NCBI GenBank assembly: GCA_963575745.1
Contig: CAUYUJ010016059.1
Coordinates: 1,187,349-1,251,348, forward strand
Length of the DNA stretch: 64,000 nucleotides
Direction: 5' to 3'
From: Prorocentrum cordatum
Taxonomy: Eukaryota > Sar > Dinophyceae > Prorocentrales > Prorocentraceae
The translations under genes were made by a program, and so were the position numbers. The notes under the pieces are model-generated. The model saw only the letters and a list, made by a program, of their open reading frames with translations. It searched no databases and was not told where the DNA came from. Positions 4,090 through 33,189 of this stretch are shown one piece after another; the first letter of the stretch is position 1; each line of letters opens with the position of its first letter.

Positions 4090-4510
4090 TCCTTCCAGGG
4101 GCCCAGACGGTGGGTGAACGCTTGCTTGGTTCCAGATATTCGCACATCCAAAGCAAAGAAGCATTGGAAGCATCAGTCGTTACGCTGGATGTGCGAGTAC
4201 TGGGGGCCAAGCGGGCGCTCACTTACAATCCCGAAGATCGGGAACCAAGCGGATGAACGTATGAACCGGATCCACATGTTCACCCGCTTGGTTCCCAATG
4301 CTCGGGAGGCCCAGTGCTTGGTCCTGACCCTCCCGAATATTTGGAACCAAGCGGGTGCAGATCGAAGGGGGTCAAAACGTCCACCAGCTTGGTTCCCAAT
4401 ACTCGGCAGGCTCAGGTCCAAAATGTTAACCCACCTGGTTCCAAAGGCCCCCCGAAAATCAGGAATCTAGCGGGTGAACAGTTGAGGTGGTCCGAATGTT
4501 CACCCGCCGT
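4090..4510. repeat. Tandem palindromic repeat, about 100-bp unit, array 1
   Basis: Each unit pairs TTCACCCGCTTGGTTCCCAA, then a CTCGGGAGG word, with the inverted partner CTCCCGAATATT and GGAACCAAGCGGGTG. Unit starts are recognisable near 4120, 4280, 4379 and 4427. The arms let every unit, and neighbouring units, fold into hairpins. Related arrays lie at 6110-6330 (decayed) and 6850-7150. Confidence 0.72.
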
Positions 4511-21215: not shown

Positions 21216-21960
21216 AAGCCAGCGACTGTCGCTGAGCGACAGACGAAGGAGTGTCGCGCGGGATGGAAAAAACTTAAGGCGGAGAAGAATCCACTGTCGG
21301 AGTCGCCGGCTTGGACTGGCCCTCGGGCACTGGCCGGGCCGGGCTGGAACGCGCTACGGATCCTGGAGGCCAGGCCCCCAACGAACAAAGGAGTGAACAA
21401 GGCAACAGTGTCTCTCTGGTCGCAGACGCACCCTTTCGGCCAGGTGGGGTTCGCGGGGGTGCACGATAGCCTGGCGCCGCTGGCGGTCACGCCGTCGACG
21501 CATTACAGATGCCTCGCGCCGTCGCGTAGTCGTCGCCTCTGTCAGCGTCGTCGTCGTCGAGGGCGAACGCTCTTGCCGCTCGCACCCAGCGCCGCCGTGC
21601 GGTATCGGTAATGCTGCTTGCGCTGATTCCTGCATGGCGGCTCTCTGCGCCTGCGCCGGACCGGATGCTGGCTGGACCTATGTCGGGCGATGCGGGGGCG
21701 CACTGCCGCAACCTGCGCCTCGTTCCAGGAATCCTGAACTCGGCTGCGTCCAAGAGATGGGCGTCCAAGAGGGGGGGTGTCGCAAGTCATGGCCCCAGGC
21801 ACGTGCGCGAACGAGGAGGGGGGGGCAGCCAAGATGTCCCGTACCCCGCATTGGCGGCACGCACCAGGGGGTTGGGAGAGGGGGCAAGGCATATTAGAAG
21901 CAGGCTGCTTCTTGGAATCGGTGTGGGCAGATGCGCGTTGGGAACCGGGCGGCTGCAAGA

Positions 21961-22290
21961 CTGCAGATGATGAGTACGCCGACGACACCGCCTTGATTTA
22001 TGCATCATCTACTTGTGCACAGGCAGCTTTGAACAGCCTGCTGGTTCGAGCAGCTCCGCACGGTCTGCTTCACAATTGGGACAGCGCCGTCGTCCTGCGC
22101 ATCGGCAGCCCGTCGCCGACCCTGGATCCGAGCGGCCGACCTATTCCTGGTGCGCGGCAGCACGTGTACCTTGGCGGCCTGGTGACGACCAGTGGATCCG
22201 CCGGACGTGCGGTCTCTCGAAGATTGGGTGAAGCGCAGGGTACGTTCACGATCTCGGAGGCGGTGCGGGGTCTTCTCTGAGCAGGAGTAG
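21961..22290 (+). pseudogene. Reverse transcriptase fragment of a non-LTR retrotransposon
   Basis: The frame reads DDEYADDTALIYASS, the catalytic motif C (YADD at 21974-21985) of reverse transcriptase. Downstream motifs in order are a GLLHNWDSAVVL segment and YLGGLVTTSGSAGRAVSRRL, the usual palm-to-thumb sequence of LINE polymerases. Everything before motif C is missing, so the copy is 5'-truncated or deleted. It differs from the two minus-strand LINEs (FADD and CADD motifs) and belongs to another family. It ends at a stop near 22280. Confidence 0.75.
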
Positions 22291-22957: not shown

Positions 22958-23104
22958 AGGAGGAGGAGGAGGAGGAAAAGGAGGAGGAGAAGGAGGAGGA
23001 GAAGGAGGAGGGGTTGGAGGAGATGGATGGGGATGGAGGAGGAGGAGGAGGAGGAGGAGGAGGAGGAGGAGGAGGAGGAGGAGGAGGAGGAGGAGGGGGA
23101 GGAG
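22958..23104 (-). repeat. (TCC)n tail of LINE copy A
   Basis: GGA triplets on plus, so TCC on the element's strand. The tract starts about 30 nt after the copy A stop codon, and imperfect GGA/GGAGAAGGA DNA continues to 22958. Confidence 0.8.
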
Positions 23105-23134
23105 CGCACTAGCCCAAGAGAGGGGACGAAGCGG

Positions 23135-24265
23135 TCAAGAGCAAGACAGAGGACGAGACGAAGACTCGATGGTCCCACCCTCCAAGCGCGCCTGGGCCAG
23201 CAGCGGGCTCTGCTGGGGAGCGCTGCCGACAATCTGCTGGAGGTCAGTCTGCTTCCGACAGACCTGCTGCAGACGAGCCTGGGCTACGCCTATCAGATTA
23301 GACGACCTGCGTCGAATTGTGTGGTGCACATGAAAGCACACATCAAAATATAGGACAATCGAGATAAGCGAATTCGACGAGATGGGAAAATAACGATGCA
23401 ATTGGAACCGCTCGATACCTGTAGCCAGCAAGAGCGCACTAGGGAGCCCGGGAAGGAAACTACCAAGCAAGTCAATCCTCGGACATTCTAGTATATGGCA
23501 GAGATGATCACTTTCAGCTAAACCGCAGGCAGCGCAGGGGGCCGTGGAATTCCGAAAACGCCCCGGGGTACACCAGGCACTAAACAAATTTTTTTTTTTT
23601 TTTTTTTTTTTTTCAAAAAAAACGAAGCCAAGACAGACGGGGGAACATTCGGCGAGGCCCTCCAGAAGGCCATCAGTATACAATCTTCTTGGGCCACTAG
23701 ACAGATGCGGGCTGAACTTACGCAGGCGGCGGCTCACAGTGCCGTGGATATCGAGGGGGTCGACCATGTGCATGTACTTCTCTACTTTCTTCTGGAGTGG
23801 CATTTCATACGTGGGGATACTCGGGATATCTGAGAGAACTCTGAAGTTGTCAATCATATTCTTCAGTATCGAACTTTTCCACCAGGGCCGAAACTCCCAG
23901 GCAACGCAGCACTCTGGATCGTCGGCGAATCCGAATAACGCTTCTCGAGCATCTTGAAAGGCAGGAGAGTACATGGCAGCGCGGAACATAGCAGCTCGAC
24001 TGGTCCGTTCCAGACATCTGGCATTGAGGGGGAAACCTAACTGAGTGAGCGCGCGCATGACATTGTGGGTGGAAGCACTGTTCGGGCCAACCGTCTGCCT
24101 TTGCAAACACTCGTGCTCAATCTTGAGGGCCTGCTTCGGGGGGGCCAACATCCCAGCAACGAAGGTCAGGACCAAAAAGGCGAGCAAGTTATACTGTGCG
24201 ACCGACTTAGTAAGCCCAAGATCCAAACCCTTGACGAATGCATCTCTCCTGGAATACTGAATCAA
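23135..24265 (-). CDS. LINE copy A: reverse transcriptase C-terminal part, zinc knuckle
   Basis: The reading frame is open upstream of its first Met. Before 24265 it reads GLYVNARKKKTKVVFIGG and KYGKYLGINLGPDSAWASW, the thumb-side YLG motif of LINE polymerases. From the Met, a Cys/His cluster (CAAC at about 244-247, H254, H257, C262) resembles the zinc knuckle found near the C-terminus of many LINE ORF2 proteins. A run of 25 A residues on this strand (23589-23613 on plus) inserts a Lys stretch at about 219-225 without breaking the frame. The stop TGA is at 23137-23135. Confidence 0.72.
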   Translation of the reverse strand: MIQYSRRDAFVKGLDLGLTKSVAQYNLLAFLVLTFVAGMLAPPKQALKIEHECLQRQTVGPNSASTHNVMRALTQLGFPLNARCLERTSRAAMFRAAMYSPAFQDAREALFGFADDPECCVAWEFRPWWKSSILKNMIDNFRVLSDIPSIPTYEMPLQKKVEKYMHMVDPLDIHGTVSRRLRKFSPHLSSGPRRLYTDGLLEGLAECSPVCLGFVFFEKKKKKKKNLFSAWCTPGRFRNSTAPCAACGLAESDHLCHILECPRIDLLGSFLPGLPSALLLATGIERFQLHRYFPISSNSLISIVLYFDVCFHVHHTIRRRSSNLIGVAQARLQQVCRKQTDLQQIVGSAPQQSPLLAQARLEGGTIESSSRPLSCS

Positions 24266-24386
24266 GGCCGGCCCCCAAGATGCCCAAGCACTATCAGGCC
24301 CAAGATTGATACCTAGATACTTGCCGTACTTCGCAAACTGGAGGCCACCGACTTCGATGCCATCGTCGATCAGGGCCTTCCGAAAC

Positions 24387-25211
24387 TCAGACTCTGTGAA
24401 TCCGCCGATGAAGACAACTTTGGTTTTTTTTTTCCGCGCGTTGACGTAGAGCCCGAAAGCGGGGCCAGCATCGGCCCATAACCAAAAAACTCACAGGGAA
24501 AGCCTCGTACACCTGCCCCGAAGAGATGCCCGCATCATCGGCGAATGCACCAACACTGTGCACAAGTTGCGGGAGCAGAAGACAGATGTTGCGCAAGACC
24601 GGGTCGATCGTCAGCGCGAACAGCGACCCGCTGACTGGGCATCCCTGCTTAACTCCTCGACCGATCCAATATCCTATATCCTCATGAAAACCACCATAAG
24701 AAATCGAAACCCGAACCTTACCGTAGAGACACTGAATAGCACGGATGATATACTGCGGGATGCCCACAGCAGAAAGCGTGGCGAACGTGGCAGAATGCAG
24801 CAGGCTGGGCAACGCGGCGCATACGTCGTACAGGATGATCCCGCACCGCTGCGCACGCCGCTGTACGTGCCAATGCAGAGCTCGAAACTCTAGCTCCAGG
24901 ATATGTTCAATCATATTTCGCCCAGGGATAAAGCCACGCTGGTCACGTATACAGGTAAGCCGACATACTGAACTAAGAGGACGCTTCGCCGCTAGAGAGA
25001 CGAGCTTGTTGGCCGCACGCGACATCGCGAGGGGTCGCGTGACCTCTGGGCTCCAAGCAAACAACTTCAAATCCTCATCCTCCGAGCCTTTTTGCCAGGA
25101 AAATAGTGAGCCCGTAGTTGGAAGTCCCATGGCACGTGCCATGCTCCAAGATGTGCTCATATAGCTTGCGCAGCGGACGAAGCCCAGCATCCCCTGCCCT
25201 AGACCACCCAC
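24387..25211 (-). CDS. LINE copy A: reverse transcriptase core
   Basis: This RNA-dependent DNA polymerase would copy the element's RNA at a nicked target. Visible motifs: TRPLAMSRAANKLVSLA (about 58-74), QRGFIPGRN (91-99), motif A LYDVCAALPSL with its catalytic Asp (about 127-137), motif B GRGVKQGCPVSG (about 183-195) and motif C FADD (223-226). The first 40 residues and the last 35 are out of frame with the true protein. The true frame enters near 25086 and leaves near 24486, at homopolymers. The catalytic aspartates are intact. Confidence 0.8.
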   Translation of the reverse strand: MGGLGQGMLGFVRCASYMSTSWSMARAMGLPTTGSLFSWQKGSEDEDLKLFAWSPEVTRPLAMSRAANKLVSLAAKRPLSSVCRLTCIRDQRGFIPGRNMIEHILELEFRALHWHVQRRAQRCGIILYDVCAALPSLLHSATFATLSAVGIPQYIIRAIQCLYGKVRVSISYGGFHEDIGYWIGRGVKQGCPVSGSLFALTIDPVLRNICLLLPQLVHSVGAFADDAGISSGQVYEAFPVSFLVMGRCWPRFRALRQRAEKKNQSCLHRRIHRV

Positions 25212-26109
25212 TGTATGGAATCCCAGCAGGCCCTGGAGCAGTAGCCCGAGTCTTCGAATCCATGGCCAGAAGTTCCTCCTCGTCTAACTTCCAAAGCTGT
25301 GACCCGGGGGCCCTCTGGACATGCTCTAGAAATCCAGCAATCAAGCGACGGTCTGCAGGTGCATCAGCATGCACACGGCCCCAATGGGCGGCAAGTGCAC
25401 GAGCACCCTCACGAGGACAAAGAATCGGCACTCCAAGCGGGTCAGTAACGGCTTGTAACGGAATCCTCGCTGCTGCTGAATTCCATGCGGACCGAAAAGT
25501 AGAGAGATGGTTTATCTTGTTGCGCTGTTTCTGTTTGCTAAGTTTCCCATCATTCTGAACTTCGGCAAACTGCTGATCAATCTGCTGACGATTTAGGGCG
25601 CTGAAGTGGGTGAAGAAGCCGTTATAGTCCCGATAGGTACCGGTGTGCTGGTCGAAATAGGCACCCAACTTTGGGTAAGCCGGAAGCGCACGACGAAGCA
25701 AATATACGTCACCAGCATGCTCCGCACGCATAGCGGCGAGCGACCGCGCGATAAACTTGGGCGTCGAGGCAGCGCCCTTCTCTTCAAGACGATGCTGAAC
25801 TTGTTTCGAGGCGTGATGGATCGCGGCTCGATTCTCTTCAACCCGGGCGACTGGACAGGATGAGGGCTCTCCGGCAGCTCCAAAGAGCTCTTGGAGGACC
25901 TTAGGGTACAAGTTGTGCTTGGTGACCCAAGAGGGAACTTTAGGGATGCCACGGGGAGCCCTGGGAGCGAGTACGGCATAAACAGGTACATGATCTGTCA
26001 ACGTAGAAGTATTAGCCACACACCCCAGAGTGCCGGAACTCGGACATAGATCCAAGAGTACAGCTGCTGGAAGAGTAAAACAAATCCTGTCCAGCCTTGC
26101 CAGGGACAC
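25075..26109 (-). CDS. LINE copy A: endonuclease end and linker to reverse transcriptase
   Basis: It opens with SLARLDRICF, the last part of the (S/A)RxDR motif of LINE apurinic-type endonucleases. TDHVPV (about 38-43), the conserved SDH motif, follows. The remaining 250 residues are the linker, ending in the reverse transcriptase entry motif APGPAGIPYSGW (about 293-304) and TIFLAK. Everything upstream of the RLDR motif is missing, so this copy cannot encode an active endonuclease. The frame stops after a shift at a T5 tract. Confidence 0.75.
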   Translation of the reverse strand: MSLARLDRICFTLPAAVLLDLCPSSGTLGCVANTSTLTDHVPVYAVLAPRAPRGIPKVPSWVTKHNLYPKVLQELFGAAGEPSSCPVARVEENRAAIHHASKQVQHRLEEKGAASTPKFIARSLAAMRAEHAGDVYLLRRALPAYPKLGAYFDQHTGTYRDYNGFFTHFSALNRQQIDQQFAEVQNDGKLSKQKQRNKINHLSTFRSAWNSAAARIPLQAVTDPLGVPILCPREGARALAAHWGRVHADAPADRRLIAGFLEHVQRAPGSQLWKLDEEELLAMDSKTRATAPGPAGIPYSGWSRAGDAGLRPLRKLYEHILEHGTCHGTSNYGLTIFLAKRLGG

Positions 26110-26173
26110 CAGAGGAGGAGGAGGAGGGGGAGGAGGAGGAGGAGGAGGAGGAGGAGGAGGAGGAGGAGGAGGA
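26110..26173 (-). repeat. (TCC)n tract between LINE copies B and A
   Basis: About 20 TCC triplets on the minus strand. It is at once the 3' tail of copy B and the 5' boundary of copy A. Confidence 0.88.
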
Positions 26174-26204
26174 GCCCAGCGTACCGAGGGGTTCGTCAGC
26201 CACG

Positions 26205-29200
26205 CTAGCCGCGGGGCGACCGCGCCTTGTCGACGCCGAGGCCGACGAGAGGCGAGGCGGGTCGCGCGGGCGCGGGCCTGGATGAGGCAGCTGCGCTGGT
26301 CGGGGAAGTTGCCGACGGGGCGGCCATCGGCCGAGAAGTAGTTTCAATCAGAGGCTGGTGAGAAGTCGAGAGGACAGATTCAGAGACGGAGAGCGGCGGC
26401 GGCGGATGCCGCGGATGGCAGAGGGGGGGGGGGGGGACAGGCGAGACGGCAGAGGGCAGCAGCAAGGCAGCCTCGAGAGGGGGAGGGGGCGGGGAAGAGA
26501 TGGGGGCGGTCGAAAAGATAAAGCGGCGAGTGCGCCCAGCAGCTGGGATACGCAAAACTCGGGAGGGAGGGTCAATCCTGAGACCGTGGAGAATATTCGG
26601 AAAGGCGTGGCCACTCGATGGGTCGAGCGACGGGGTAATGGCGGGAAACAGTGAAGGCACAAACGCGGAGGGAGGGGGAGCAGGCGAGGGGCAAGCAGAG
26701 GCAGGGGCAGAGTTCAACGGAGCGAGGGGCGAGGCGAGGGAGGAGATGAAAGATCGCTCTAAGATGGGCGCAGGATGCACGTGCAGGAGAGGCGAGATGA
26801 CGGGATGAATAGAACAAATGTTCTCGACTGGGGGCTCATGACGGGAAAGCGATCCCGCCGCGGAACTGGGAGAGGCAGGAGATATCCTCTGGGAGCACGG
26901 AGACGCCGAGGACGCACAGCAGGAGGCAATCCGCGAGGAGGAGGCCGCCACCCACGGAGCGGTCGGAGCAATCGACGACGTCAGAGTAGCCGAAATCGAG
27001 GAGCAGGGCGGGTGCGGGGAAGACAAGGCCATAGGCGTCGTCGATAGAAGGCGTCCGTGCATCGAGCGCCCCACTGCAATCGACACCACAGAGCTGGATG
27101 GCGGCGCCTCGCAATTTACTCGAGCCTGGGGCAGCGGGTTCGAGGAGCACCCGCGGCCAGGACTTTGCGATCTGACACCAACAGAAGGGAAAGGCCACGC
27201 CTCGCAATTTACTCGAGGAGCCTGGGAAGGCGGGCTCGAGGAGCACCCGCCACCAGGACTTTGCGATCTGACGCCTTCAGCACCAAAGGCGGGAAGAGAC
27301 CAAGCCACCTCGTCGCAATTTACTCCAGATGCCTGCTCAGACGGGATCGAGGAGCACCCCCTGGCAGGACTTGGCGTTCTGACATCATGCACCGCCGCAA
27401 CAGGGCGGAGGTCGAGCATGACGAGGTCGTCCGAGTCGTCCGCATCCTCCGAGGAGCTGGGAGATGATGATCCAGACGTCGTCGAAAGCGGGGGCATGGT
27501 CGCGCTGCGCGAAGAGGAGGAGGAAGAACTCGACGACGAAGATGAACTTGAGGAGGAGCTGGCAGGACGGGGCACACGAGGAGGCCAGTGGGGAACAAGT
27601 GAAGCTCGTTCCTCGTCCGAAGCACGAGAGGGGTGCGCGAGACGCATCGCCCTCACCCCCGCCAGAGCGCATGCGTGGGTCTGCTGTGCAGAGAGCGGCC
27701 ACTCACGGATGGTGCGGGCCTCGTTGTACATGTTGTACGCGGCCGTGAGCAGCGAGAACGAGGAGAACGAAGGAGACGCCAGACCCCGGCGAGAAAACCA
27801 ATCGAGCGGAAAAGGGCGTGCCAAAGCCCGTCTGAGAGCACGATGCATAGGTGGGGATCTCGTATAGTGACGGAGGGGCTCGATTCGCTGCATGCATCCG
27901 AACGCGCAAGGTCTCTGGCCCAGCGGGGAGATGATCCTTGCCGAAGTCATCGAGCCGTCACACCAGGTGCGCAGCGCGGCCCATGCCCACGAGCACGGAC
28001 AGCGAGCAAGCATCGCGGCACAGCTGTCCCAGTCGATAGAGTCGAGACGGTCCCTCGCACGCCCAGCAATCTGCATCAGCCGCCGGCGGAAGAGAACCTG
28101 AATCGGCCGAGCCGAACACGCAAGTTGGCGTAGAGCAAGGTGTGCAGCACGCTGAGGCCGAGATCGCTGTCCAGGGGCAGGGGAGAGAGCGGCGCGAGCA
28201 GCAGGGAGCGCGGCATCCAGGAGGGCAGAGAGACCAGAACCCTCAGGAGCACGGCCGAGAGCAGCAGCCTCCAGGTTCTCCGCCAGCGCCGTGGACTTCC
28301 AGAAGCCAGGATACAGGCGCCCGTGCGGCAGCATGTCGAGCGTCACGTCGGTGTCCCTCGCGGCGATGTGCTCGCGCATGCGGGACAGGATGGGCTCCCA
28401 GCACGGGTAAGTGAGCAGCGCAGCGCGCGTGATGGATGCCGCAGCCACGTGCGCCCATCGGATGATCCTGGGCGCCCCCCACCTCTCCAGCTGCACCCAC
28501 ACGTCGAGACCGAAGGTGCCGAGAGGAAGACGATAAACTTGTGCCAGCACTGCAAGCTCGGGTTGAAGGACCGAGCGCGGGATCCAGGAGAACTGTGCCA
28601 CGTACGAGAGAGTAGTAACAGCGCGGGAATTGTATAACTGGGCGGACTGGCTGGCAGGAGTGGTGCCACGGCCAATAGCTTGAGCCCGCAAACGCAGCTT
28701 AGTGAGCGGGTCGGTCCACGAACGATCGGGGGCGGCCCCAGGACCCAGCGAGATGCCCAGGTAGAGCAGGCAGTCGACCACTTCAAAGGAGGACCACTCG
28801 GGGACCCAGTAGGAGATCTCCTGGAGGACGCGGGTGGCGAGCTCGGGGGAGAAGGGCCCGCAGAGAGGGACCACCTTGCACTTGCTGACCTTCAACGCGA
28901 GGTTGGCCATGCCAGAGGCCTTGGACACCGCCCCGAAGACTCGAACGAGGTCGGCGATCGCGGAGAGCGCGCCCCCAATGTCGTCCGCACAGGCCCGCAC
29001 GAGGCCAGATAAGGGAAGCTCAACCACTTGGACCAGCTCAGAGAGGAAAGCAGCCGTACTGAACGCAAATAACGATCCCGAGAGAGCGCAGCCCTGAATG
29101 ATGCCACTGTCAATCCAATATACATGTTCAAGAGTCCCCTGCACCATAGCAACCCCGCCGATCGCAGCGTACAGGAAAGCGACGAAGTCGAGGAAGCGAT

Positions 29201-29807
29201 CAGGGAGCCCGAGAGTCCGAAGAGCGAGGGTCATGAAGCCTTGGTTCAGGGACGGGAAGGCCTGGCCGAAGTCCAGGGGGTACAAGAGCGGGATATCCAG
29301 GGAACCATGGGGAATGACCGAGAGCATCCTGGCCGAAGCGTCGAGCTCGATGATATTCTCACCGAAGTTGCGGCGAGGGATGAACCCGCGCTGGCAAGAG
29401 GGGATGAGGTCCAGGGCAGGGCGAACAGCACGATTCATCGTCGCAGAGATGAGCTTGATGTCACAATTCCTAAGACCGAGGACACGAACTTTGTCTGGGG
29501 CCCGCACGAACCCCCCTGATTGCAACTCGTTGTCAGTGACATTTTTTCGGCAGGAAGATCTGAATAGTGTCCGATGCAGAGGCGAACAGGAACTGGCCAT
29601 CTCCGATCCACTCGAGAGGACCCCATAGAACCTCCACAGCAAAGGGGTGGGCCTGCCACGCAGCATATGGAAGAGCGTCGGGGCCAGGAGCGGAGTGTTG
29701 AGCGCCACGAATAGCAGCACGGAGCATAGCACGGGAAGGCGGGGGGAGATGAAGATCATCAGCACGGGGCAGGAGACGATGGAGGTAGGGGCGAGCAGCG
29801 TCTTCAT
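26205..29807 (-). CDS. LINE copy B: reverse transcriptase with zinc knuckle and Ser/Pro tail
   Basis: A 1200-codon frame whose first ~90 codons are out of phase; the true protein enters after a frameshift near 29542 (T6 on plus). Motifs: QRGFIPRRN (about 139-147), motif A LDFGQAFPSL (about 178-187), motif B GIIQGCALSG (about 235-244), motif C CADD (about 273-276; the usual Tyr/Phe is Cys), LLYLGISLGP (about 347-356), and a Cys/His knuckle CAFGCMQRIEPLRHY (about 634-648). From about 735 to the end is a disordered tail rich in Ser, Pro and Ala. It contains a poly-Ser run and three imperfect copies of a VRSQSPGxGCSSxP...VNCEA unit. Such a 450-residue tail is unusual for a LINE polymerase. Confidence 0.82.
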   Translation of the reverse strand: MKTLLAPTSIVSCPVLMIFISPRLPVLCSVLLFVALNTPLLAPTLFHMLRGRPTPLLWRFYGVLSSGSEMASSCSPLHRTLFRSSCRKNVTDNELQSGGFVRAPDKVRVLGLRNCDIKLISATMNRAVRPALDLIPSCQRGFIPRRNFGENIIELDASARMLSVIPHGSLDIPLLYPLDFGQAFPSLNQGFMTLALRTLGLPDRFLDFVAFLYAAIGGVAMVQGTLEHVYWIDSGIIQGCALSGSLFAFSTAAFLSELVQVVELPLSGLVRACADDIGGALSAIADLVRVFGAVSKASGMANLALKVSKCKVVPLCGPFSPELATRVLQEISYWVPEWSSFEVVDCLLYLGISLGPGAAPDRSWTDPLTKLRLRAQAIGRGTTPASQSAQLYNSRAVTTLSYVAQFSWIPRSVLQPELAVLAQVYRLPLGTFGLDVWVQLERWGAPRIIRWAHVAAASITRAALLTYPCWEPILSRMREHIAARDTDVTLDMLPHGRLYPGFWKSTALAENLEAAALGRAPEGSGLSALLDAALPAARAALSPAPGQRSRPQRAAHLALRQLACSARPIQVLFRRRLMQIAGRARDRLDSIDWDSCAAMLARCPCSWAWAALRTWCDGSMTSARIISPLGQRPCAFGCMQRIEPLRHYTRSPPMHRALRRALARPFPLDWFSRRGLASPSFSSFSLLTAAYNMYNEARTIREWPLSAQQTHACALAGVRAMRLAHPSRASDEERASLVPHWPPRVPRPASSSSSSSSSSSSSSSSSRSATMPPLSTTSGSSSPSSSEDADDSDDLVMLDLRPVAAVHDVRTPSPARGCSSIPSEQASGVNCDEVAWSLPAFGAEGVRSQSPGGGCSSSPPSQAPRVNCEAWPFPSVGVRSQSPGRGCSSNPLPQARVNCEAPPSSSVVSIAVGRSMHGRLLSTTPMALSSPHPPCSSISATLTSSIAPTAPWVAASSSRIASCCASSASPCSQRISPASPSSAAGSLSRHEPPVENICSIHPVISPLLHVHPAPILERSFISSLASPLAPLNSAPASACPSPAPPPSAFVPSLFPAITPSLDPSSGHAFPNILHGLRIDPPSRVLRIPAAGRTRRFIFSTAPISSPPPPPLEAALLLPSAVSPVPPPPLCHPRHPPPPLSVSESVLSTSHQPLIETTSRPMAAPSATSPTSAAASSRPAPARPASPLVGLGVDKARSPRG

Positions 29808-29904
29808 CCCAAGGCTTCTTCCTGAAAGTGGGACCCCAGTAGTCGGTGAGGGCCGTCAGCCGCTGGGACGGGTCGGAGACAATCTCGCCACTCGCAAGAC
29901 GAAC
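29533..29904 (-). pseudogene. LINE copy B: linker and reverse transcriptase entry segment
   Basis: This segment continues the endonuclease frame beyond an in-frame TGA (29907-29905). It reads LASGEIVSDPSQRLTALTDY, WGPTFRKKPW and then APGPDALPYAAW, the entry motif of LINE reverse transcriptases. It ends at a frameshift near 29542 where the long polymerase frame takes over. One stop and one shift therefore separate endonuclease and polymerase, which were probably one polyprotein. Confidence 0.65.
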
Positions 29905-32238
29905 TCACGAGAGGGAGACCCGACGATTCAGAGGTGACCACAATCTCGCTCTGCGCTCCAAAGCTCTGATCTGAAGTCTGATTTGAGCACGGCCCCCCAG
30001 ACGACGACGGCGAGCTTCCAACTCCTCCTTGGCGGCGGCCGCTGCAGCAGACTGGATCTCATCGACCCAGGCCTGGAACGAAGGAGGATGTATCAGCTCA
30101 ACCTTGCCAGCCCGCACATTGGTCATGCCCACAGCCACGGGATGCGATTCCTGAAGGCGGCGCGCAAGCGGAACGTCTTGACGCCAGACAACTCGTGCCA
30201 GTGCTCGTGCAAGCTGGAGAAGGGCGTGGGGAGGATGAGGGCGAGCACGGAAGAGACGATCCCGAACTTCGGCAGAGGCGATTTTCAGCAACTTTTTGTA
30301 GTGCTCGAGCTTGACGGGCGGGAACATCTGGGACCAGTCGGAGGCCTTGATGAGACCCTCGCGGCGCTGCTTGAACGCTGGCTCGTGGAATATGTGCTTG
30401 GGAATGGCTCGCTCGTCCTGAACCCTGGGGGCCCTGGAGGCGAAAGAGATCAGCACGGCGGCGTGGTCCGAGACGCATCTATCCGACGCTAACGCAGCCG
30501 AGTCGACAGTCGACGCCTGAACCACAAGTTGACACATCTGCCATCCCGAGAGCGAGCAAAAGAATCGATCGATGGACGATTCAGCATTCCCAGCACGCTC
30601 ATAGTGCGATGGGGCATCACTTTCAATCTCAAGCAGCGGGGCAAGAGCGCCCCGCCACTGCGGAGCGCGGGCCTGGTGCTGCCGCGCACTCCGCCGCACA
30701 GCCGCAGCGGGCATATGCAGCAGGACGGACTCGTGCGAGGAAAAGTTGAAGTCGCCATTGACCACGACCATATGCGAGTCTGGTGCTCGCCCAGACGCAG
30801 CCCGAGCAGCACGGATATCACGTGCAACGCGAGCAACTTCTGCCAAATAAAGACCATGATTGTGTACGTTGTACACCTGAAGGCATACATCTCCCAAAGA
30901 TATATCAACCCGAAGAACGCGCCCAGGGACGATAGGGGCAGGAGGATGGACGACAGCACCAGGACGAAGAGGAGGAAGTACGACTGCGACGCCCCCACGG
31001 ATGCTGCCGCCAGCATCAGCGTCACAAAAGCTAGAGCGCACAGTAAGAGCACGTGCCACTGTGCCCAAGAAAGAGACAAGTTGATGATGATCCTGGTGGA
31101 CCTCCTGGAGAGAAAGGACCGTCTCAGACAGACGGAGCTTGATGAGGTACTGGCGCTTCAGATCTGCTTTCTCTCCTCCAGCTTGCAAGAGCGCCCTGGC
31201 GTTCCAGGAGGCAAAGCGAAGCGGTCTCGCCGAAGAGGAAGAAGACGGCGAGGAGGAGCGAAAGAGGGAGCACGCGCTAAAGAGACCACTGGCTGGTCTC
31301 GACTGGGTGGGCGATCTCCTTGGTCGCCTCGCGGAGGCGGGCAACATCCATGCGGTTGTGCTCGAGCTTCGGGATGTCCCAGTAGATGACGGGGGGGGGG
31401 GGGGGGGGGGGCGCCCCCCCGAGGCGACCTCGATCTGCATGATCTTGTCCCAACCAACCAGCAGGGCGCCACGCTCGCGGTCGGTGTAGATCCGCTTCCC
31501 AGGGTAAGCCTCCTCCACCAATCTGCGCACTCTACGGAGGACGATCTCCTGCTTGATCTGCTTGGGGCTCCTGTCGGGGCCGAGGTGGATGCGGCAGCGC
31601 ACATCGCCAGGCGGGGTAATCCAAAATGCTTTCCATTCTGTGCCTTCGCGTAGGTTGGCAAGGACACGGTCGACCTTGCGGGAAGCGACCCCGACGGGGC
31701 CGTTGAACTTGATCTCGAAACGCTTGCATGGGACCGTGCCTTTGGCAGCGATCTGGCAGTCGTTGCTGGCACTCTCAAAACCGATAGAAGACAGCCAGGG
31801 AGCCAGCACCTCACGAACACTTTCCAATGAAGAGGGGCGCTGGGGGATGGCCACAACCATGGTCGTGTCAATGTCGCGATTGAAGCCAGCAGGAACTTGT
31901 GACTGGGGACGAGGACGGGCCTCAGCGAGAGCGAGTTCTTTCCTGAGCTCGGCCATCTCCCGACGGATGTCCACGAGGTCCTGGTCGTGCTTGGCGGTTG
32001 CTGGAAGAGTGGGCGTCGATGGCGCCCTTCTGCTGGTCGATCTGGGCCTGCAGCCTGCGCGACAGAGAGTCAGGCTGGGGTGTGGCGGCCTTGCGCACAT
32101 CGGCCTCGAGGGTCTCGGTGTGGGTTTGGACCAGGGCTCTGAGATTCTCCACGGCGGCGAGCAGGGGCTTGTTGCTCTCGGCGGCGGTCTTGGCAATGGA
32201 GTCACCAAAGTCCTCCTTGATGGAGTCAAACTCGGCAC
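29905..32238 (-). CDS. LINE copy B: ORF1-like domain and apurinic-type endonuclease
   Basis: The true frame enters near 32000 (about residue 80). It begins with a charged helix (LVDIRREMAELRKELALAEA, about 88-107). A mixed alpha/beta region follows (about 125-270), resembling nucleic-acid-binding ORF1 domains. After a Pro/Ser linker, the endonuclease spans about 340-602, with ASWN (344-347), QEVH (378-381), NGDFN (494-498), SSIDRF (553-558) and SDH (590-592). All catalytic positions of the family are kept. This enzyme nicks target DNA to prime reverse transcription. A run of 21 G on plus (31391-31411) encodes the Pro stretch at about 275-283. The first ~80 residues are out of frame. Confidence 0.8.
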   Translation of the reverse strand: MPSLTPSRRTLVTPLPRPPPRATSPCSPPWRISEPWSKPTPRPSRPMCARPPHPSLTLCRAGCRPRSTSRRAPSTPTLPATAKHDQDLVDIRREMAELRKELALAEARPRPQSQVPAGFNRDIDTTMVVAIPQRPSSLESVREVLAPWLSSIGFESASNDCQIAAKGTVPCKRFEIKFNGPVGVASRKVDRVLANLREGTEWKAFWITPPGDVRCRIHLGPDRSPKQIKQEIVLRRVRRLVEEAYPGKRIYTDRERGALLVGWDKIMQIEVASGGRPPPPPPPSSTGTSRSSSTTAWMLPASARRPRRSPTQSRPASGLFSACSLFRSSSPSSSSSARPLRFASWNARALLQAGGEKADLKRQYLIKLRLSETVLSLQEVHQDHHQLVSFLGTVARALTVRSSFCDADAGGSIRGGVAVVLPPLRPGAVVHPPAPIVPGRVLRVDISLGDVCLQVYNVHNHGLYLAEVARVARDIRAARAASGRAPDSHMVVVNGDFNFSSHESVLLHMPAAAVRRSARQHQARAPQWRGALAPLLEIESDAPSHYERAGNAESSIDRFFCSLSGWQMCQLVVQASTVDSAALASDRCVSDHAAVLISFASRAPRVQDERAIPKHIFHEPAFKQRREGLIKASDWSQMFPPVKLEHYKKLLKIASAEVRDRLFRARPHPPHALLQLARALARVVWRQDVPLARRLQESHPVAVGMTNVRAGKVELIHPPSFQAWVDEIQSAAAAAAKEELEARRRRLGGRAQIRLQIRALERRARLWSPLNRRVSLS

Positions 32239-32491
32239 GGCATAACTGGCGAATGAAGTCTTCGTAGCCTTCGGGCATCTCGTCGTCCAGAGCAGGGGGG
32301 CAACTCAGCGTCAGCGTCATCATGAACAGCCTCCCCAGGGAGGGCGCGACGCTTCTGCGGGTTGGGGTCGGTGAAGCGGGACGGAGCAGCTCCTTTGCCT
32401 TGAACTTTACCTTTGCCAGACTTGACCTCCTGGGACGGGAAGGTCGGTGCATCCTCCAGCTGCTCGAGCTGCGAGGTCGTGAGCTCATCAC
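31995..32491 (-). pseudogene. LINE copy B: ORF1-like coiled coil (middle frame)
   Basis: The sensible segment runs from ALDDEMPEGYEDFIRQLCRA through an SNKPLLAAVENLRALVQTHT heptad-like helix to RLQAQIDQQKGAID. The frame then shifts into the endonuclease frame near 32000. A coiled coil before a nucleic-acid-binding domain is typical of LINE ORF1 proteins, which trimerise and bind the element RNA. The entering frameshift lies near 32296-32330, possibly at a G6 run. Confidence 0.6.
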
Positions 32492-32684
32492 CGCGAGGGC
32501 TCGCCACCATCACCGCAAGTTGACTGGTCGAGGGAAGAGACGGTGCGGGGGCCCAACTCCCGCGGTAAAGGCACAAGATAACGATCAGAAGACTGATGAG
32601 CGGGCTGGAGAGTGGCCTCAAAGCGGAACCTCCCTCGCGCTCAGGTGTCGCCCCGAAAGACTCGCGGTCGTCGGGACGGTTCAT
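32226..32684 (-). CDS. LINE copy B: N-terminal ORF, first ATG after the spliced leader
   Basis: This starts at the first ATG, three bases after the spliced leader (MNRPDDRESFGATPERE). The frame is sensible to about residue 120 (QKRRALPGEAV). It includes a hydrophobic run LISLLIVILCLYRG of unknown meaning and a Lys/Gly-rich segment. After that the reading shifts to the next frame, so the last ~30 residues are spurious. Function is unknown. The leader-proximal start makes it the likely N-terminus of the element's protein. Confidence 0.55.
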   Translation of the reverse strand: MNRPDDRESFGATPEREGGSALRPLSSPLISLLIVILCLYRGSWAPAPSLPSTSQLAVMVASPRGDELTTSQLEQLEDAPTFPSQEVKSGKGKVQGKGAAPSRFTDPNPQKRRALPGEAVHDDADAELPPCSGRRDARRLRRLHSPVMPCRV

Positions 32685-32687
32685 GGC

Positions 32688-32709
32688 CTTGAGCCAAAAT
32701 GGCTACGGA
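32688..32709 (-). other. Genomic copy of the dinoflagellate spliced leader (DinoSL)
   Basis: On the minus strand the sequence is T, then CCGTAGCCATTTTGG, then CTCAAG: all 22 positions of the known spliced leader, with T at the variable first base. In dinoflagellates this leader is added to mRNAs by trans-splicing and is not normally encoded next to genes. No splice donor follows it, unlike a spliced-leader RNA gene. It is therefore a retro-copied mRNA 5' end. GCC and an ATG follow directly. Confidence 0.95.
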
Positions 32710-32735
32710 GGAGGAGGAGGAGGAGGAGGAGGAGG
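32706..32735 (-). repeat. (TCC)n tract at the 5' boundary of LINE copy B
   Basis: Nine or so TCC triplets on the minus strand merge with the TCC that begins the spliced leader, so the junction shows microhomology. The flank 32736-33190 is unique and unassigned. Confidence 0.85.
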
Positions 32736-33189
32736 ACGACGGGTCGCCTTAGCCCTTCGGAGAAACCTCCACTCCCCCCCCTCCCCCTACCCCACTGTGT
32801 GCGCGGCGGACCCTAGCCCTCACACCCCTCTAGGACACCCCAGACACCCGACGTCGTGGTCTCTTGGTCGCAGCTTGGGCCCCCCTGGAGGTCTGGGCCC
32901 TTCCGCTGGGCCCAGCTCTTCGGTCAGGAAAACGCCCCTGGAAGCCAAATCCACCGAAAAAGGCTTGTCTGTTCGAGTCGTCGTCTCCGTCAATCGTCGT
33001 CTCCGTCGTCCCCTTTCCCTGCACCCTCCTCCTCAAGCCTGTCCGCGAGAGTAGAATCTAGCAATGTCGCAATGGAGGCGGAGGGAACCCCGTTCCATTT
33101 ACGGCGGTCCGCGGGGGGAGGGGCCCCGGGGAAGGTCCCAGGGGGGGCGGTCAGATACGCATCCCCCCATGAGGGCCCCAGGGTCTCCG

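Follow-up and report, generated by a model that had tools for sequence, protein, structure and literature searches.

A host spliced leader as the probable heritable 5' end of two-ORF LINE retrotransposons in Prorocentrum cordatum

Introduction

In the window, i.e., the whole 64-kb stretch of Prorocentrum cordatum DNA analysed here, a dinoflagellate spliced leader (SL) stands directly before the first ORF of a LINE, raising the question of whether the leader is the regular 5' terminus of this retrotransposon and, if so, how it was acquired. Relict SLs in dinoflagellate genomes have been described as tags of retroposed genes (PMC6050394, PMC12014239, PMC7245778, PMC8045281, PMC3229502), with a new SL spliced at an internal AG of the old one (PMC3229502), and the account in PMC6050394 leaves open which retroelement drives this retroposition. 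In Symbiodinium, SLs have been described near endogenous RNA-virus genes, with LINEs nearby (PMC10235124). Within the open-licence literature, with subscription papers and supplements outside this scope, no report of an SL as the 5' end of dinoflagellate LINEs was found, so that the novelty of the arrangement is provisional.

Results

An exact spliced leader precedes a two-ORF LINE

The 22-nt SL TCCGTAGCCATTTTGGCTCAAG is matched on the minus strand (32688-32709) at 22 out of 22 positions with no mismatch, and the order on this strand is (TCC)n, SL, GCC and the ATG of ORF1 (Table 1); leader, GCC and ATG are as a sequence-only reading of this DNA had described them. As the first three bases of the SL (TCC) also fit the upstream TCC tract and may belong to the repeat, 19 bases are unambiguous. 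A chance match was rejected, since none of 100 shuffles contained an SL match at ≤3 mismatches; the window itself holds no second match at this threshold and, elsewhere within its 64 kb, no further SL stretch of ≥12 bases. An SL RNA gene was likewise rejected, because GCC stands after the leader where a GT donor would be expected and Rfam gave no match at gathering score anywhere in the 64 kb. The SL exon is joined to coding sequence as in relict-SL cDNAs, and the cargo is a LINE, not a host gene with a parent elsewhere. A possible misassembly in (TCC)n could alter the flank but not the junction between SL and ORF1, because this junction recurs in 60 copies (see below).

Table 1 Features of the window around the SL-headed LINE, listed 5' to 3' on the minus strand.
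Feature	Position	Strand	Remark
(TCC)n tract abutting the SL on its 5' side; presumed target of insertion and perhaps a pyrimidine tract	32707..32736	-	GGA run on the plus strand; last 3 bases overlap the SL start
Spliced leader, 22 nt	32688..32709	-	22/22 match
Putative 5' module, SL + ~83 nt (MNRPDDRESFGAT...)	32605..32708	-	104 nt, 96% to L014
Spacer GCC between SL and ATG, 3 nt	32685..32687	-	sequence and 60 relatives
ORF1, ATG to TAG, ending TSQWSL	31277..32684	-	three apparent frameshifts
ORF2 span, ORF1 stop to ORF2 stop	26205..31276	-	ORF2 start within span, approximate
APE endonuclease domain of ORF2	30442..31161	-	Pfam/profile match
Reverse transcriptase (RT) domain of ORF2	28746..29564	-	Pfam/profile match
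(TCC)n 3' tail after ~29-nt 3' UTR	26112..26174	-	also 5' junction of the next LINE
Second LINE, different family	23135..26109	-	RT 24468-25103
TCC-rich 3' tail of second LINE	22958..23096	-	repeat run

Downstream of the SL and on the same strand, Pfam matches to an APE endonuclease (PF03372, 2.1e-10) and an RT (PF00078, 5.4e-8) were obtained. With an upstream ORF1 and with APE followed by RT in ORF2, the window element is, as judged from its sequence, a two-ORF APE/RT LINE. Among proteins, ORF1 is closest to P0001, which is named Prorocentrum cordatum (83% over part), followed by weaker relatives, and a search with the ORF1 N-terminus returned one protein, covering 63% of the 230 residues queried. 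Altogether, 15 out of 16 protein relatives of the element are named Prorocentrum cordatum, the remaining one being a JGI protein, and a search for RT relatives among viral contigs returned none. A profile with its RT part from P. cordatum relatives had human LINE-1 ORF2p as best solved-structure match, a comparison in which the window row of the alignment covers ORF1 only. The coding path includes four frame changes, three in ORF1, which ends with its stop at 31277-31279, and one apparent frameshift in ORF2 near 29.9 kb. Homopolymer runs of C (31390-31412) and A (23590-23620) lie within LINE reading frames, the former coinciding with a frameshift, which may reflect an assembly error or a real expansion.

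Both LINEs of the window carry TCC tails, i.e., simple-repeat 3' ends, and the SL-headed element has no poly(A) at its 3' end, which was counted against a fully processed mRNA as template. Since both its ends sit in (TCC)n, a target-site duplication would be hidden. The second LINE begins directly after the (TCC)n tail of the first and seems to have lost its 5' part up to a point near the APE domain's end. All three TCC clusters in 22958-32736 lie at LINE junctions, and TCC tracts at the junctions of both elements suggest microsatellite-directed insertion. Further along, an ORF at 21777-22280 on the plus strand with a YADD-like motif and without a Pfam match is possibly the degraded RT of a third LINE on the opposite strand.

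The leader keeps its position in related copies

The first 24 coding bases (ATGAACCGTCCCGACGACCGCGAG) were found at 273 genomic places at ≤3 mismatches, compared to three for the control. Upstream DNA was examined at the first 60 of 100 listed places, all of them with zero mismatches and taken regardless of an SL. The sequence-only reading had proposed a genome search for the leader at a shared position, and it was indeed present in 60 out of 60 copies (of the 273 found) with the 3-nt spacing kept: 42 matched 21 of 21 SL bases, 13 matched 20, three matched 19 and two matched 18. The two lowest-scoring loci, L076 and L114, are tandems of SL and relic, with a truncated first SL in L076. The 60 copies have 57 distinct flanks, and their spacer reads GCA (36), GCC (13), GCT (9), GGC (1) or GCG (1).

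These copies were covered to ~100 nt past the ATG; the presence of LINE domains was confirmed in the window element and in L014, L043 and L092. The closest copy, L080, lies at another locus, also behind TCC, and differs at 4 of 100 bases after the ATG. Between the window and L014, both of which encode APE and RT, the first 104 nt are common (96%) with no further DNA match, and L034 and L043 share 78-97 nt with the window from the SL. In all four, the alignment begins at the SL and upstream similarity is absent. On this comparison of sequences, a putative 5' module of ~100 nt, composed of the SL and the N-terminus MNRPDDRESFGAT..., is common to elements with different bodies. Of the 60 copies, 57 have a variable segment of 3 or 6 nt in this module, one has 7 nt and two are unparsed, supporting the ATG 3 nt after the SL as a real start.

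Genomic leaders frequently head LINEs

The exact SL 21-mer occurs 14,218 times in the home genome (4,128,499,153 bases), about once per 290 kb, with zero hits for the reversed-pattern control. An SL in a 64-kb window is consequently not rare, and it is the position at the 5' end of a LINE that is special. We sampled 48 of the first 49 listed SL places regardless of content (C32:4919, near a contig start, was skipped), 40 of them with ~6 kb and eight with ~1.5 kb of downstream sequence. A first, narrower set of profiles built from P. cordatum proteins detected RT in 14 and APE followed by RT in 13 of the 40 deeper places, all in sense and none in antisense. After widening the set by APE from L092 (Pfam-confirmed), APE and/or RT were detected in sense at 28 out of 40 SLs and in antisense at none (binomial 7e-9; i-E-value limit 1e-3), with the antisense strand and the density of the window itself (two RTs within its 64 kb) serving as controls. 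L011 has an RT match upstream of its SL, which was not counted, L026 has RT and APE in unusual order, and L008, among the eight shorter places, also has a LINE domain. Because L042 shares the LINE of L043, the independent cases are 27 of 40 (Wilson interval 52-80%), and the genome-wide extrapolation is rough since the places were first-listed and not random.

At 12 of the 40 SLs no LINE domain was detected downstream; in three of these (L034, L037, L041) the first tens of bases match SL-headed loci with one. SL heads recur on LINEs that show no DNA-level likeness after the SL. Ten loci (L004, L008, L010, L012, L020, L026, L030, L032, L036, L045) resemble each other over the first ~70-130 nt, at about 75-91% in linked pairs, with L008 and L020 alike over 1.5 kb and LINE domains downstream in eight of the ten; by this likeness they may carry another 5' module common to several LINEs.

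Taken together, the 60 copies and the 28 LINE-headed SLs make the SL head a property of many LINEs and not an accident of the window copy, bearing out as a group property the earlier suggestion that the leader heads the retrotransposon itself. This alters the reading of genomic SL relics, since a tally that took each of them for a host retrogene would come out too high.

Leaders abut microsatellites or a conserved upstream unit

Directly upstream of the 40 sampled SLs we found TCC in 17, GA-rich tracts in nine and other sequence in 14 (some TA, CAT and CA repeats); for the 28 LINE-headed SLs the numbers were 16, six and six. Across the genome, a perfect (TCC)3 in phase precedes 1,682 exact SLs. 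Among the 60 related copies, 23 abut TCC, 30 have a conserved upstream unit and seven have other flanks. All 23 TCC-abutting copies carry non-B sequence after the ATG, like the window, and 29 of the 30 copies with the unit carry the B type.

Twelve B copies were examined ~700 nt upstream, of which ten (L094, L096, L098-L105) share the unit up to ~172 nt and two (L095, L097) do not. The match starts near one common point in most pairs, with no similarity before it, and L103 contains ~110-bp tandem copies of part of the unit. Some LINEs have monomer promoters, which the tandem monomers of L103 resemble, and by its sequence the B unit looks like a promoter 5' UTR that makes the SL an internal part of the element. 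Unit and SL are separated by 10-15 nt, which take 23 forms in the 26 copies parsed, and the unit also precedes SL+relic heads (L025, L114); varied junctions together with such heads indicate that the unit may instead have been joined repeatedly or be a preferred target.

With the conserved unit in 30 of 60 copies, the SL is internal there, and its location at the exact 5' end is not universal. A longer unrelated 5' UTR, named by the sequence-only reading as an outcome that would speak against it, was thus seen in part, as a conserved upstream unit in half of the copies, whereas in the 23 TCC-flanked copies the SL abuts the microsatellite.

Relic leaders on LINEs point to repeated rounds

An SL followed by the relic of an older one was found on the LINEs L012, L017 and L044 (15 of 15 relic bases) and L025 (14 of 15). 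Exact SL+relic 36-mers number 1,202 genome-wide, over all kinds of cargo, and the exact combination is absent from 58 of the 60 copies of the window's group. The heads on these four LINEs suggest repeated rounds of trans-splicing and retroposition, and we infer from them that trans-splicing of LINE RNA preceded its retroposition and that some lineages went through this more than once.

Discussion

From the sequence comparisons we consider it quite probable that the heritable 5' terminus of this APE-type two-ORF LINE is the host SL, gained by host trans-splicing. In the proposed cycle, a precursor LINE RNA would be trans-spliced by the host at the AG just before GC(A/C/T)ATG, yielding a capped mRNA with a 5' UTR of only SL plus 3 nt. 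The LINE proteins would then use microsatellites, mostly (TCC)n or GA-rich, as insertion sites for this RNA, and reverse transcription up to the cap would make the SL part of the new DNA copy. As such an SL contains two AGs, splicing at CAAG| in the next round would restore a single SL, while splicing at TAG| would leave SL + CCATTTTGGCTCAAG. In one subfamily the SL would now be internal, behind a promoter-like unit.

Which AG serves as acceptor, and the roles of the TCC tract as target and as pyrimidine tract, are what we infer from these arrangements. Reuse of CAAG| restoring a single SL is speculative, as is a TCC target recognised via pairing with the (TCC)n tail and doubling as pyrimidine tract. 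Exact replacement at CAAG is an assumption, because TAG splicing, as reported for relict SLs (PMC3229502), would stack relics. Dinoflagellate trans-splice acceptors have been described as AG without a simple consensus (PMC2488372), and a requirement for a pyrimidine tract is accordingly not established.

More broadly, and as a tentative proposal to which we would give slightly less than an even chance, many dinoflagellate LINE lineages may have ceded their 5' end to the host: trans-splicing would provide cap, SL and start, and insertion into (TCC)n would provide a pyrimidine tract before the CAAG acceptor of the SL, so that copies rebuild their splice site and ride read-through transcripts promoterless, one subfamily having gained an upstream promoter unit before a fossil SL.

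The sequence-only reading had gone further in concluding that the window copy must have been reverse-transcribed from a trans-spliced mRNA. This is too strong, since the SL is in the DNA of all 60 copies and is heritable, and no freshly trans-spliced RNA is required as ancestor of the window copy. This DNA-encoded state in 60 of 60 copies also favours the view that the SL was captured once or a few times and then inherited as DNA, with transcripts starting at or upstream of the genomic SL and no new trans-splicing. The ~172-nt unit of subfamily B fits such inheritance, being promoter-like, starting at one shared point in most of the copies checked and forming monomers of ~110 bp in L103, and for the Amphidinium PCP gene a message with an SL has been discussed as one that could arise without trans-splicing (PMC2488372). 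We nevertheless regard inheritance as DNA alone as rather unlikely. The SL+relic heads on LINEs require at least two additions, SL heads recur on LINEs that are unlike at the DNA level after the SL, and 42 of 60 SLs remain perfect. Moreover, the SL abuts the microsatellite in the TCC copies, so that unrelated flanks would have to set the start site of any RNA whose first base is that of the SL.

Unlikely as well, and a shade more doubtful, is that a few SL-less master loci with an ordinary outron and 3' splice site make all copies, the SL-headed ones being dead on arrival. Most SL heads are indeed single, and a non-systematic look identified no promoter before SL-headed copies in microsatellites. 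However, none of the 60 copies examined (of 273) is without an SL, and the SL+relic heads indicate a further round of expression and retroposition for some SL-headed copies.

A one-off event, whether one processed transcript of a LINE, a chimera from template switching or a host retrogene beside a truncated LINE, would agree with the SL-headed retrogenes well known in dinoflagellates (PMC6050394, PMC12014239), but is extremely improbable in view of the SL head shared by 60 of 60 relatives and of the LINEs behind 28 of 40 SLs. At the group level, these same counts refute the one-off and host-retrogene readings. LINEs targeting SL genes exist in trypanosomatids and nematodes, yet it is just as improbable that the SL belongs to the target of a LINE inserting into SL RNA genes, like SLACS/CZAR/CRE1 or NeSL, as (TCC)n lies upstream in the window, GCC and not GT follows the SL, Rfam gave no match in the window, a TCC or GA-rich tract immediately precedes 26 of the 40 sampled SLs, and an insertion inside an SL RNA gene was found neither in the window nor at the sampled loci.

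The SL-headed LINEs, with an SL probably gained by trans-splicing, have parallels in several known systems. Dinoflagellate relict-SL retrogenes likewise have a genomic SL from a trans-spliced mRNA, as a full SL or as SL plus a 15-nt relic after the internal TAG, whereas the cargo here is a LINE and the SL a recurrent LINE 5' terminus instead of a tag of host-gene copies. LINE-1-like APE-type non-LTR retrotransposons share the two ORFs with APE and RT; unlike them, the element studied here apparently has a 5' end from host trans-splicing and a (TCC)n instead of a poly(A) 3' tail. In trypanosomatids, which are also SL trans-splicing hosts, L1Tc/ingi with Pr77 show a short 5' sequence common to different elements (77 nt there, ~100 nt here), but L1Tc is described as producing unspliced transcripts from its own promoter plus ribozyme (PMC8190864), while the shared 5' sequence here begins with the SL. 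For an HDV-like ribozyme at the 5' end, the Pr77 trait, an Rfam scan of the window produced nothing at gathering score, though a divergent ribozyme could escape such a scan.

In Schistosoma mansoni, six genome-encoded SLs merged to transposable elements were reported, and the authors suggest trans-spliced, retro-transcribed elements (PMC5832876); these are a handful, with assembly chimeras possible according to the authors (PMC5832876), whereas the class found here is large, keeps its SL at a fixed position and bears traces of more than one round. The LTR retrotransposon Cer1 of C. elegans also has an mRNA with SL1 trans-splicing (PMC3315495), although in the account given there SL1 is restricted to a short spliced mRNA, which occurs with and without it, and the 8-kb RNA is not trans-spliced at that site (PMC3315495).

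If true, acquisition of the 5' end by trans-splicing would explain a full-length LINE without an internal promoter and suggest where the reverse transcriptase behind the recycling of SL-bearing mRNAs comes from, so that the driver of dinoflagellate cDNA recycling becomes directly testable by full-length cDNA.

Leaders were also seen in contigs of other collections. A bacterial MAG contig (L002, 32-52) has an SL at its end with a (TCA)n microsatellite directly before it, a further case of an SL joined to a microsatellite. The viral-collection contig IMGVR_UViG_3300045993_001077 (L001, 1936-2913; 22% GC), which has a Glyco_transf_41 gene, contains two exact SLs, the second followed 45 nt on by a 49%-GC ORF of 254 aa, and this resembles a processed cDNA of the host that a large dinoflagellate DNA virus took up together with its SL. 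The contig L003, binned as Dehalococcoidia, has an SL (4334-4354) followed by GTACGC; this is probably an SL RNA gene of a dinoflagellate, the contig having been mis-binned.
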